From: a virus
DNA length: 22,964 bases
Direction: 5' to 3' (one strand)
IMG/VR virus record: IMGVR_UViG_3300030406_003155
Coordinates: 3,091-26,054 of that record
Each line of letters opens with the position of its first letter. Within the stretch, counting starts at the first letter, position 1. The translations under genes were made by a program, and so were the position numbers. Shown here piece after piece: positions 4,839 through 12,066 of this stretch. The notes below the pieces were generated by a model that did not search any database, was not told the origin of the DNA, and worked only from the letters and a program-made list of their open reading frames with translations.

Positions 4839-4979
4839 CTAAACAGTAAATGTCCTGCTAAGAGGATTCTTTTTAAAGGGTTTTTTAAACTTAACTTTTT
4901 TTTCTTTTTTTTTCTCATCTTTTGACCCTCGTAATTTTCCCTCTACTTGCTTAGTCATTTGTGATCTTCCGATAACCAT
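4839..4979 (-). CDS. Very basic 46-aa protein coupled to the endolysin gene
   Basis: An open frame of 46 codons reading MVIGRSQMTKQVEGKLRG, then a Lys-rich middle (DEKKKEKKVKFKKPFKK) and ending NPLSRTFTV. Its ATG overlaps the endolysin stop by one base (TAATG), the same junction used by several secure gene pairs here, which is the main reason to accept it. A GGAAAGG element lies somewhat far upstream. Almost half of its residues are Lys or Arg. It occupies what would otherwise be a gap between the endolysin and the 115-residue gene. The function is unknown. Confidence 0.6.
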   Translation of the reverse strand: MVIGRSQMTKQVEGKLRGSKDEKKKEKKVKFKKPFKKNPLSRTFTV

Positions 4980-5455
4980 TATATTAAATCAACAGCCTTT
5001 CCAATTATTGGTTTATATTTTGTTTTACCATTTTCTTTATATGCTCTCATATACTGTGCTCTTGGATTAAATTCAACATAAGATGCATGAATCCACCCGC
5101 TGTTAGGTTCGCCTGGAGTGTAGAACTCCAGAATTAGCTGATCTGTCGTGCAGTTCATATTTATCCAATCAGCAACTTCAGCGTTGTCTACGCCTAAAAC
5201 CTCGAAGTCTGCGGCCTCGGCTTTAGCATGCTGTGAATTTACAGAACTACCTATTGCTGCACATAACTCAGGGGATCTGTATCCGCTAGTCACTTTAACT
5301 CTACCAAAGTGATCACGTACTGGCTGAAGAATTCTTTCGCATAACATTTCTAATTTTTTAATTTGGTCTGCGTTTGGATTGTTATCTATATCTAAACGTA
5401 TAGCTGTATCGGATTTAATAAGCTCTTGTAAGCTAAAATTTCGTGAAAGATTCAT
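4979..5455 (-). CDS. Endolysin, peptidase M15 (D-Ala-D-Ala carboxypeptidase type)
   Basis: A 158-residue zinc peptidase that should cleave peptide cross-links of peptidoglycan and release progeny. The M15A signatures are clear: VTSGYRSPELC (residues 55-65), then SQHAKAEAADFEV (74-86), where His76 and Asp83 are expected zinc ligands, and WIHASY (121-126) with His123 as the third ligand. The N-terminal NFSLQELIKSDTAIRLDIDN is the typical lead-in. The length fits single-domain M15 endolysins. No signal peptide is visible, so export should need a holin; the candidates are the gene at 11373..11756 and the 26-residue membrane peptide just upstream. It starts at a TAATG junction with the 69-residue gene. 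Confidence 0.9.
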   Translation of the reverse strand: MNLSRNFSLQELIKSDTAIRLDIDNNPNADQIKKLEMLCERILQPVRDHFGRVKVTSGYRSPELCAAIGSSVNSQHAKAEAADFEVLGVDNAEVADWINMNCTTDQLILEFYTPGEPNSGWIHASYVEFNPRAQYMRAYKENGKTKYKPIIGKAVDLI

Positions 5456-5664
5456 TAATTTAATATTATTTTTTTTATACTTTTTTCACCTAAATATATT
5501 TCTGTTTCTGCTTTACCTTTATAACATTTGTAAGATACAGATTCGCTGTATTGTCTTTCAGCCTGACGCTTGCCTCGAAGGCATGCGGCCATAGATTCTT
5601 GAATACGATGCTCCTTGATCTCTCCATTGTAGAACATAAGTAGAGCCACCACAGCTTCAATCAT
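5455..5664 (-). CDS. Small lysis-cassette protein, 69 aa
   Basis: A 69-residue protein with a short hydrophobic N-terminus (MIEAVVALLMFYNGEIKEHR) that could act as a weak export signal or anchor. It also has two cysteines (AACLRGK, YKCYKG) and a basic C-terminus. It overlaps the upstream 26-residue membrane peptide by 8 bases and the endolysin by one base, so it is embedded in the lysis cassette. I have seen similar small proteins beside M15 endolysins in marine phages. A spanin-like or endolysin-accessory role is possible, but no lipobox is present, so this is only positional inference. Confidence 0.75.
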   Translation of the reverse strand: MIEAVVALLMFYNGEIKEHRIQESMAACLRGKRQAERQYSESVSYKCYKGKAETEIYLGEKSIKKIILN

Positions 5665-5737
5665 ATTTCCTCGCTAATATAAGAATAGATAACATCATAA
5701 CTGTGAACACAATCCCTATGAAAAAAAGACCTATCAT
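5657..5737 (-). CDS. 26-aa single-pass membrane peptide in the lysis cassette
   Basis: A short gene reading MIGLFFIGIVFTVMMLSILI then LARKYD. It is almost entirely a transmembrane helix followed by a short positively charged end (ARK). It fills the gap between two secure genes: its ATG overlaps the upstream stop as ATGA (4 bases), and its stop overlaps the next start by 8 bases. Such double coupling is unlikely by chance. Small one-helix peptides beside an endolysin often act as holins, antiholins or pinholins. That role is plausible here but inferred from location and hydrophobicity only. Confidence 0.65.
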   Translation of the reverse strand: MIGLFFIGIVFTVMMLSILILARKYD

Positions 5738-6159
5738 TGTGAGTAACTTCCATTTTTATAACCAATCTCACGATTAGCATCTTTTAATTTTTCTATATCT
5801 TCTAAAACTTTATCCATTTGTTTTCTTAAAAATTCTATATTTACTTTATTTAAAGCCATATTCTCAATATGTTTATTTAATTTATCTGTGGTCTTATAAA
5901 GATCCTCAATCATCATAAATTGCTCAGAATCCGCAGGCAAGGAGCCTAGTTGTCCACGAGGCCATTTAATTCTAAACTCTGTATTTTCTTCTAAATCTTT
6001 TTCCATTAACTGAAGTCGTGTGTCTGCAACATTCAGACGTTCGATGATTTGGAAATATCCCATTGTACCAAGTGCCACAATAATTATCAAAGACGCTACA
6101 GTCTTCATTGGCATTTGAACTTTTGCTTCTTCTCCTATGTTTAAAGGTTTATTTTTCAT
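5734..6159 (-). CDS. Membrane-anchored coiled-coil protein of the lysis cassette
   Basis: A 141-residue protein with a short cytoplasmic N-terminus (MKNKPLNIGEEAKVQMPMK) and one transmembrane helix (TVASLIIIVALGTMGYF, about residues 20-36). A long hydrophilic part follows with heptad-like coiled-coil stretches (ERLNVADTRLQLMEKDLEE, then KLNKHIENMALNKVNIEFLR and on to about residue 130). This type II membrane topology with a periplasmic coiled coil resembles i-spanins and related lysis accessory proteins. It overlaps the upstream gene by 4 bases and is followed by the hidden 26-residue peptide, the 69-residue protein and the endolysin. A spanin role is plausible but no matching o-spanin lipoprotein is visible, so it remains tentative. 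Confidence 0.75.
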   Translation of the reverse strand: MKNKPLNIGEEAKVQMPMKTVASLIIIVALGTMGYFQIIERLNVADTRLQLMEKDLEENTEFRIKWPRGQLGSLPADSEQFMMIEDLYKTTDKLNKHIENMALNKVNIEFLRKQMDKVLEDIEKLKDANREIGYKNGSYSQ

Positions 6160-6821
6160 TCGTAGGTTTTGTCCTCATCTCTTGTTTTTTCTTCCATATC
6201 GTAAAACATTTTATCACTATCTTCTGTAACAAGTCCATTATCCTCTGCGTCCCAATAAGTAGTTTGGACTTTATAATCTGGCCAACTGTTATCAGTAGTA
6301 TAACTATTAATGTGCCATAAAAGACGATTATTAGGCTGAGCTGCATAATTACCGTTATCAAGAGCCAATATATGCGCACACTTATGTTCTTGAGGAATTT
6401 CAGAGTGTTCTGTATCCAAAATATTAGTGTCTGGGTGAGCCCAATCAATCGTAAATAAATATTTACCATGATAAAATGTTTTATCTAAACCTAAAAATTT
6501 TCCTGCTACACCATCCAACCAATCAAAGCAAGTGACACTAGGCCAGTAACTAAAACAATTCCACAATTCAAGCTCGTGTACCTGCATATCGGGCACTTGG
6601 GCTCTATCATACGATTTTTGAAAAAATGCTGAGATAGGCAGACGCCAATAGCACGCACCGTTGGGTAACATGATATTAAATAAGATTGCACGACCAGATA
6701 TGCTCGTAATACTAAAGATAACACAGTCTTCACTTTCTTCATGGTGTTCTGTAAGATCATAAAGATATTCCTTTCTTATTTTACAATAAATTGGAGGTAT
6801 GTTTGCATTCAGATAAGACAT
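6156..6821 (-). CDS. Conserved hypothetical phage protein, 221 aa
   Basis: A 221-residue protein rich in aromatic residues (Trp and Tyr throughout) and acidic toward the end. Notable stretches are PNGACYWRLPISAFFQKSYDR, LELWNCFSYWPSVTCFDWL and KFLGLDKTFYHGKYLFTIDWAHPD. The ribosome binding site TGGAGGG about 11 bases upstream supports the start, and the stop overlaps the next gene by 4 bases. It appears as a soluble beta-rich domain without known catalytic motifs. I recognise this as a recurrent protein just upstream of lysis genes in uncultured marine phages but know no function. It contains four cysteines (C13, C33, C57 and C107 region), not clearly spaced as a metal site. Confidence 0.78.
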   Translation of the reverse strand: MSYLNANIPPIYCKIRKEYLYDLTEHHEESEDCVIFSITSISGRAILFNIMLPNGACYWRLPISAFFQKSYDRAQVPDMQVHELELWNCFSYWPSVTCFDWLDGVAGKFLGLDKTFYHGKYLFTIDWAHPDTNILDTEHSEIPQEHKCAHILALDNGNYAAQPNNRLLWHINSYTTDNSWPDYKVQTTYWDAEDNGLVTEDSDKMFYDMEEKTRDEDKTYE

Positions 6822-11372: not shown

Positions 11373-11756
11373 CTATTTCTTACCCTTGAAGATCTGGGTG
11401 CCTTTTATACCATAAACGCTCGCCACGACAAGAATCCACAAGTTTGTGAACCAGGACGGAAGCTGTGAGAAATATTCAAAAAAAAGTTTAACTTTATCCA
11501 TAGAACTTGGATCATCACTTAGAACTGCCCAAGCTAGCACCAAAACAGGCGCAGAAAGAATTATTAAAATAAATTCGTCCTTGTAATCTGATTGTCTTGC
11601 TTCAAGAAGCTTGCCTTGATAAGCTTCTTCTCCTGCTGCCATTTTTTGTGCATGCATAAGTTGAGCATCTGACATTGCTTGTTTTGTCTTCTGACGGTTG
11701 GAGTAAATATGTGCTCCTGTTTTTACTGCCATTCCTAATAGATTGAACCATGCCAT
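11373..11756 (-). CDS. Holin-like membrane protein
   Basis: A 127-residue protein starting MAWFNLLGMAVKTGAHIYSN. After a helical, soluble N-terminal half, two hydrophobic segments follow: DEFILIILSAPVLVLAWAVL (about residues 59-78) and LWILVVASVYGIKGTQIF (about residues 104-121). The DE-(F)-x-L-x-L-x-S-A-P pattern and the final G-I-K-G resemble gene-transfer-agent type 3TM holins as I remember them. It is therefore a candidate for timing lysis, though the endolysin is far away at 4979..5455. I prefer the ATG at 11756 over the TTG four codons earlier, because the AAGGAGA site is then usable (12-14 bases away). The start lies inside the preceding homing endonuclease frame. Confidence 0.7.
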   Translation of the reverse strand: MAWFNLLGMAVKTGAHIYSNRQKTKQAMSDAQLMHAQKMAAGEEAYQGKLLEARQSDYKDEFILIILSAPVLVLAWAVLSDDPSSMDKVKLFFEYFSQLPSWFTNLWILVVASVYGIKGTQIFKGKK

Positions 11757-12066
11757 AATAATTATCAACTCTCCTTTTTCCTAGATAAGGTATCATTAAA
11801 TGGATTATTTTTAAAGCCTCTACCCCTGTTACTTTATACCTAAAAAGCTTTTTATAGTTTTTCTTTCGAGGTTTTGTTTCATAAACGCTTCCTTTTTTGA
11901 AGTATTTATAAAACTTTTGGATTATATCATAATCCGACATAGTTATTGAGCATTCGATATTATTTGTTTTGTTAATACCTTTACTATAGTATCCAAAACT
12001 ACCCTCTCCCTCAAATATTCCGCTTAAAAAAATTAATTTTTCTTTTGGTGTAAAAAAAGACCACAT
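11602..12066 (-). CDS. LAGLIDADG homing endonuclease, single motif
   Basis: A 154-residue protein. Residues 11-24 (LIFLSGIFEGEGSF) are a LAGLIDADG helix with the catalytic acidic residues, followed by beta strands (NNIECSITMSDYDIIQKFYK) and the closing IIHLMIPYLGKRR helix (about 87-99). One motif implies it acts as a homodimer, cutting a long DNA site and spreading itself. It seems free-standing; no intron or intein boundary is visible. The last 50 residues (104-154) are read in a different frame from the start of the holin-like gene and look non-native, so the functional protein may really end near residue 100-110. The codons for LGKRR also form the ribosome binding site of the holin-like gene. 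Confidence 0.85.
   Translation of the reverse strand: MWSFFTPKEKLIFLSGIFEGEGSFGYYSKGINKTNNIECSITMSDYDIIQKFYKYFKKGSVYETKPRKKNYKKLFRYKVTGVEALKIIHLMIPYLGKRRVDNYYGMVQSIRNGSKNRSTYLLQPSEDKTSNVRCSTYACTKNGSRRRSLSRQAS

Follow-up and report, generated by a model that had tools for sequence, protein, structure and literature searches.

The DNA analysed here (the window), 22,964 bases long, comes from a virus record of 26,054 bases; its nearest named relatives are pelagiphages. On its minus strand, four genes follow one another in close order: the gene of a 141-aa protein, a frame of only 26 codons, the gene of a 69-aa protein and that of an M15 peptidase (Table 1). The short frame begins with ATG and encodes the 26-aa peptide MIGLFFIGIVFTVMMLSILILARKYD. 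A preliminary description of this DNA had joined it to the upstream neighbour by an ATGA overlap and to the downstream neighbour by 8 bases, and both overlaps match the sequence exactly; the TGA stop codon of the peptide is read from codons 2-3 of the 69-aa gene (ATGATTGA). The mean Kyte-Doolittle hydropathy is 2.71 over residues 1-22 and 2.83 in the best 19-residue segment, and the charged residues (R23, K24 and D26) lie at the end, in agreement with the membrane helix with a charged end that had been described; judged by hydropathy only, the peptide contains at least one transmembrane span. Its place two genes before the endolysin also holds, in that the 69-aa gene is followed by a peptidase gene whose product matches Pfam PF08291 (Peptidase_M15_3, E 2.2e-16) and the PHROGs endolysin family phrog_894 (E 1.7e-39) and has an 85% identical counterpart in phage Lederberg. 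For the 141-aa protein, we infer, and only infer, a spanin-like layout. A 221-aa gene at 6156..6821 has a match in phrog_3704 (E 6.6e-77), a family that bears the label 'ferredoxin' in PHROGs; given the length of the protein, this label is doubtful.

Table 1. Features of the peptide locus and of related loci. Positions are those of the window, except where a locus handle (L) precedes them.
Feature	Position	Strand	Basis or family
26-codon gene, single-span membrane microprotein, MIGLFFxG family	5657..5737	-	ORF and relatives
ATGA start/stop overlap of peptide gene and upstream 141-aa gene	5734..5737	-	sequence
8-base overlap of peptide gene and downstream 69-aa gene	5657..5664	-	sequence
73-base block, cleanly present or absent between 141-aa and 69-aa genes	5665..5737	-	163 junctions
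141-aa protein, N-terminal hydrophobic stretch and likely coiled coil	5734..6159	-	phrog_20984, function not given
69-aa protein, common in pelagiphages	5455..5664	-	phrog_24646, function not given
M15 peptidase, likely endolysin	4979..5455	-	PF08291 and phrog_894
127-aa membrane protein, better holin candidate (by position)	11373..11756	-	phrog_2524, no function given
RNA element copies	L143:4663-4821, L261:2090-2230, L054:5270-5411, L307:1331-1472, L318:4090-4224		
Further RNA element copies	L310, L314, L325, L306, L297		

Is so short a frame a genuine gene? Relatives were first gathered through the neighbours and not through the peptide, the 69-aa gene, the 141-aa gene and the endolysin each contributing 80 loci. 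All loci fetched up to the time of counting, by this and other routes, yielded 79 distinct DNA copies encoding 75 distinct proteins. Positions 1-20 carry no charged residue, and G8 and S/T12 are kept, in 75/75 of these proteins; the +1 and +2 sense frames contain stops in 79/79 copies. Because copies were collected by a motif that prescribes residues 1-6 as M, I, any residue, L, F and F, the conservation of these residues is partly built in. The 81 distinct contexts with the start motif all closed at 26-32 codons, bar one that was ended by a contig edge. Differences between close copies were distributed over codon positions 1, 2 and 3 as 4013:817:4760, so that the second position, with 817 of 9,590, is under strong constraint; the pairs compared are not independent of one another. 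The dN/dS ratio was 0.33 in frame, 0.34 in the +1 frame and 1.46 in the +2 frame; because the first two values do not discriminate between the frames, we dropped this measure as support. We also rejected a 39-aa frame over the same bases (5661..5780), which is open only in some relatives and with unlike sequences, the other sense frames being stopped in every peptide copy. That 5657..5737 is merely a spurious open frame of AT-rich DNA is scarcely credible: its 26 codons are few and the family members in the HTVC008M and Mosig records were left unannotated, but the conservation is frame-specific across the 79 distinct copies, and the copies in L313 and HTVC008M are 69% identical (E 6e-5 in a search of 2.3 Gb). 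The same two records bear out the expectation that annotation would overlook such a frame. On the evidence of comparative sequence analysis, we regard it as confirmed that 5657..5737 is a genuine gene for an overlooked, conserved single-span membrane peptide. No family in Pfam or PHROGs matched the peptide, and its sole match in NCBIfam was a sub-threshold one to PEFG-CTERM (E 0.0064). In the GTDB genomes, 86 stretches fit the pattern and none was confirmed as a relative. Among the papers listed by literature searches there was nothing on this peptide, no text match for the strings MIGLFFIG or MIGLFFLG, and no match for LAGLIDADG together with pelagiphage.

How is the gene retained where its neighbours are kept? 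We counted the junctions downstream of the 141-aa gene, leaving out those in which the match to the 141-aa protein ended before residue 100 or its stop lay within 60 bases of the end of the locus; 203 rows were reduced to 163 distinct junctions by merging identical ones. The preliminary description had named stops or indels in relatives that keep the neighbouring genes as the sign of a false frame. The frame was never found broken: it is intact in 22 of the 163 distinct junctions and cleanly absent from the other 141, and it is thus not generally retained where the 141-aa gene is kept. Both neighbours are present in all 22 peptide-bearing junctions, of which 19 show the standard gap and three have a further gene, of 56 aa, ahead of the peptide. 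In 120 of the 163, the 141-aa gene is joined directly to the 69-aa gene; the remaining 21 peptide-free junctions have other inserts or no 69-aa gene in view, and a search of these 21 for remnants of the peptide found none. The closest peptide-free junctions read CAATGATTGA. The 69-aa gene starts with ATGATT in 22/22 peptide-bearing junctions, and with ATGATA (51), ATGATT (37) or another sequence in the peptide-free ones. Since the peptide gene also starts with ATGAT, the block of 73 bases stands between two ATGAT copies, and it could therefore be gained or lost without harm to either neighbour.

In a tree of the 141-aa proteins (150 rows, the window included; rows without a 69-aa gene, with a gap >300 or with a short 141-aa gene were left out), the presence of the peptide requires at least 17 changes, six of them forced by well-supported branches, against 21.8-21.9 changes when presence is shuffled, many forks of this tree being unresolved. 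The nearest relative of the window by this protein (L082, 97% identical) is without the peptide. About a dozen distinct relatives (e.g., L005, L016, L023 and L040) carry the 56-aa gene (MATGRITKK...) at this junction, on its own or ahead of the peptide (with a gap of 144 or 217). Because this gene has also been inserted there, the junction is a hot spot for small cassettes.

A profile built from 27 copies (alignment A1) was run on IMG/VR, and the best 80 of 150 confirmed loci were used to describe the genomic contexts of the gene. Among these best 80 of 150, the 69-aa gene adjoins the peptide in 47 loci (context A), the peptide lies directly before a LAGLIDADG-type gene in 25 (context B; the gene in L303 matches PF00961, E 1.7e-6), and eight loci have other contexts. 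Of the 80, 42 have the 141-aa gene immediately upstream, and 64 show an upstream overlap of 4 bases; downstream, the overlap measures 8 bases in 47 loci and 11 in 23. Where the start of the 69-aa gene was visible upstream in loci of the LAGLIDADG or a similar context, that junction was peptide-free in 14/14. The peptide genes of L287 and L288, which differ in context, are identical at 75 of 78 bases. Whole-record searches were positive in 11/41, 47/48 and 7/46 records (the second set named 50 loci, in 48 distinct records); after removal of overlaps between the sets, 132 distinct records had been searched, and all 63 positive ones held a single copy, three of these being weak matches to a second, longer subfamily. 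Because most records are fragments, 'one copy per genome' here means one per record. In many LAGLIDADG-context loci (e.g., L015:6580-6705, L280, L288 and L303), the gene before the peptide is an ORF of 41-58 aa, and by a text rule such an ORF carries near its start an LTAC-like motif, presumably lipobox-like, in 16 of the best 80 of 150 loci.

Two cultured Pelagibacter phages, HTVC008M and Mosig, hold members of the family at still other junctions. In HTVC008M, an unannotated 32-aa member (from position 124303) lies between a 116-aa gene and a 213-aa gene in a nucleotide-metabolism region; the product of the 116-aa gene matches the PDDEXK family PF24608 at E 8e-5, below the cut-off of that family. 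The member in Mosig, likewise unannotated, has 26 aa (MLGLFFLGMVVSVIVMMIILKVMSYE, from position 118716 downwards), and here too its stop shares 8 bases with the start of the following gene. The T4-like contig L308 provides a further context. The second subfamily (27-41 aa, many members with an ending of the WYIVNN type) has members in 37 loci, and a LAGLIDADG gene is present in 31 of these; some members lie beside exonuclease genes, none of the 37 has an M15 gene in the flanks fetched, and none holds two family members. In L480-L488, L479, L358 and L398, second-subfamily peptides and an RNA element described below lie beside tiny membrane-type ORFs (33, 43, 44-53 and about 46 aa), which suggests that these phages have islands of small membrane proteins.

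Does the peptide belong to lysis? The preliminary description had placed it in a lysis cassette as a good candidate for a minimal holin or antiholin, and the alternative to be weighed here is that, as such a protein or as a pinholin, it adjusts lysis jointly with the M15 peptidase and the 127-aa protein. The single span, the oligomerisation-type pattern of G8 and S/T12 and the endolysin two genes away in the window all accord with such a role. When we considered only those of the best 80 of 150 loci with at least 3 kb downstream, an M15 gene lay within 1.5 kb downstream in 27/34 loci of context A, but in 0/18 of context B (two of these 18 have M15 about 3 kb upstream) and 0/5 of the others. 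As a control, loci fetched through the 69-aa and 141-aa genes were compared: M15 follows the 69-aa gene within 1.5 kb in 5/10 loci with the peptide and in 20/54 without it, which, in these small numbers, are about equal. The closeness to the endolysin therefore appears to belong to the neighbouring genes and to be independent of the peptide. Together, this control, to which we give the greatest weight, and the variety of contexts led us to reject a lysis cassette as the sole explanation; the claim of membership is weakened further by the copies beside LAGLIDADG genes, by the HTVC008M member among nucleotide-metabolism genes, by the second subfamily, 0/37 of whose loci have M15, and by the 141 junctions that keep the 141-aa gene without the peptide. 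No holin profile in Pfam, PHROGs or NCBIfam matched it. Like class III (T4 T-like) holins and pinholins, the peptide would be a phage inner-membrane protein, with an endolysin gene not far off in the window. Class III holins, as characterised in PMC9636201, have one span and a large periplasmic domain and are oriented N-in/C-out; in contrast, the peptide has 26 residues, no domain and a basic C end, and it differs from holins in being optional and often far from an endolysin. The accessible portions of three pelagiphage papers (PMC9599517, PMC12753301 and PMC10504331) contain no occurrence of the word holin; in that of the last, on Skadi, peptidase M15 is named for lysis (PMC10504331). On balance, we consider a holin or antiholin role unlikely.

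A better holin candidate than the peptide, by position, is the 127-aa membrane protein. In the window, about 5.6 kb separate its gene from the peptide and about 5.9 kb separate it from the endolysin; in several cultured relatives (HTVC034P, HTVC010P and Lederberg), homologues directly adjoin M15, and matches extend to the M15 gene in HTVC100P, HTVC204P and Greip. The protein was found in 25 of 41 records, in 6/11 of the peptide-positive and 19/30 of the peptide-negative ones, so the two do not replace each other. It has no match in Pfam, the holin families included, and a profile comparison with the DSL-LC04 holin (PF11351) gave no support, for which reason it is a holin candidate by position only. 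A distant relative in a Vibrio phage is labelled DUF3154, which we take to be the older name of the GTA holin family. The proposal that this phage has two holin-type genes thus survives for the 127-aa protein and is not supported for the peptide; with this protein in a holin-like position, the phage need not use the peptide as a holin. A LAGLIDADG-like ORF at 11602..12066 (sub-threshold in Pfam, E 0.001; PHROG HNH endonuclease family, E 2.7e-18) overlaps the start of the 127-aa gene by about 155 bases in a different frame.

Could the peptide instead serve its immediate neighbours? The ATGA overlap in the window and the 141-aa gene directly upstream in the 42 loci mentioned above would suit a peptide that forms a subunit together with the 141-aa membrane/coiled-coil protein, as in an envelope complex or one of spanin type; but the other scan loci, HTVC008M and Mosig have the peptide without that neighbour and most 141-aa genes are without the peptide, and we consider such a partnership quite unlikely. 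Alternatively, the short frame might be a translational coupler or leader that sets the expression of the next gene, the peptide itself being unimportant. Overlaps with the neighbours in nearly all of the best 80 of 150 loci, and a stop read from the codons of the next gene in 22/22 peptide-bearing junctions, are what a coupler would display. However, the hydrophobic core, G8, S/T12 and the R-K-Y-D end are kept across different downstream genes, and because a mere coupler needs no conserved amino-acid pattern, this explanation is weakened to the point of being very unlikely.

The peptide is probably an optional membrane-acting accessory rather than a lysis hole-former, as far as comparison of its sequences can tell. 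Our preferred reading, which we hold at somewhat better than even confidence, is that 5657..5737 encodes an optional, relocating single-span microprotein that acts on an inner-membrane protein and is not tied to lysis, because the gene occurs at several unrelated junctions and most relatives of its neighbours lack it. As a counterpoint, the lysis-adjacent context A accounts for the majority of the best 80 of 150 loci, with M15 mostly close by, and a role as an accessory in lysis timing is compatible with these copies. The layout suggests that the peptide would be translated from the ATGA overlap, either by coupling or by re-initiation; a scan for Shine-Dalgarno-like motifs found none in 31 of the 79 copies. 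By the positive-inside rule, the helix would sit N-out/C-in with Arg-Lys at its C end, and the small-xxx-small face of G8 and S/T12 could contact a host or phage inner-membrane protein, helix to helix. Such contact may help the phage to take over its host; if one purpose is to be named, superinfection exclusion is the likeliest. This role in exclusion or takeover is the least certain step and is a guess, as any specific function must be, because the family is named in none of the profile libraries.

The small membrane proteins with which phages exclude superinfection or take over a host are tiny, accessory and patchy and lie among small genes, and the peptide resembles them in being tiny, accessory, membrane-spanning, patchy and located in regions rich in small genes; searches of Pfam, PHROGs and NCBIfam linked it by sequence to no named exclusion protein. 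Phage small genes were reportedly catalogued by Fremin, Bhatt and Kyrpides in 2022. Like uncatalogued genes of that kind, this one is below 50 codons, missed by annotation and recognisable by conservation; it differs from phage small genes generally in that it relocates between gene junctions with one copy per record.

Some of these loci contain a conserved non-coding element of about 130-140 bases that ends at, or within a few bases of, an ATG, that of a LAGLIDADG gene, of the peptide, or of a gene that we take, from its motif, to be HNH-like. RNAalifold, applied to 10 copies, predicted 39 pairs, and in 14 of these both partners have changed. At gathering thresholds, Rfam matched neither the window nor the element, its one hit being a tRNA in L308, and a permissive scan gave a single chance-level lncRNA match. 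No copy was found in named phages; a 17-base core of the element occurs in at least 120 stretches of IMG/VR. From this predicted folding and its surroundings, the element seems to be a structured RNA, as yet undescribed, that is linked with homing endonucleases and accessory genes.

How might the peptide gene have come to lie at so many junctions? We speculate, tentatively and with more doubt than belief, that it is a nomadic plug-in microgene that slots into ATGA junctions. Its ends, ATGAT at the start and TATGATTGA at the stop, would let the 73-base block enter such a junction and leave the genes on either side unharmed, and these compatible ends would account for a one-copy gene at several unrelated junctions in both podovirus-type and T4-like pelagiphages. 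The vehicle may possibly be a homing endonuclease of the LAGLIDADG or HNH type together with the structured RNA, which are often adjacent to the gene.

The host of these viruses is probably SAR11, the commonest bacteria of the ocean. SAR11 phages are among the commonest marine viruses, and most of their small genes are without an assigned function. What emerges here is a clearly conserved family of membrane peptides of about 26-41 residues, missed in the annotations of HTVC008M and Mosig, which recurs across very different pelagiphages and at different gene junctions. It also gives reason for caution, in that a place beside an endolysin is by itself poor ground for naming a small membrane gene a holin. 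If the peptide does block a second infection or alter a host membrane protein, it would offer a small, testable means of probing how a streamlined host is taken over by these phages.
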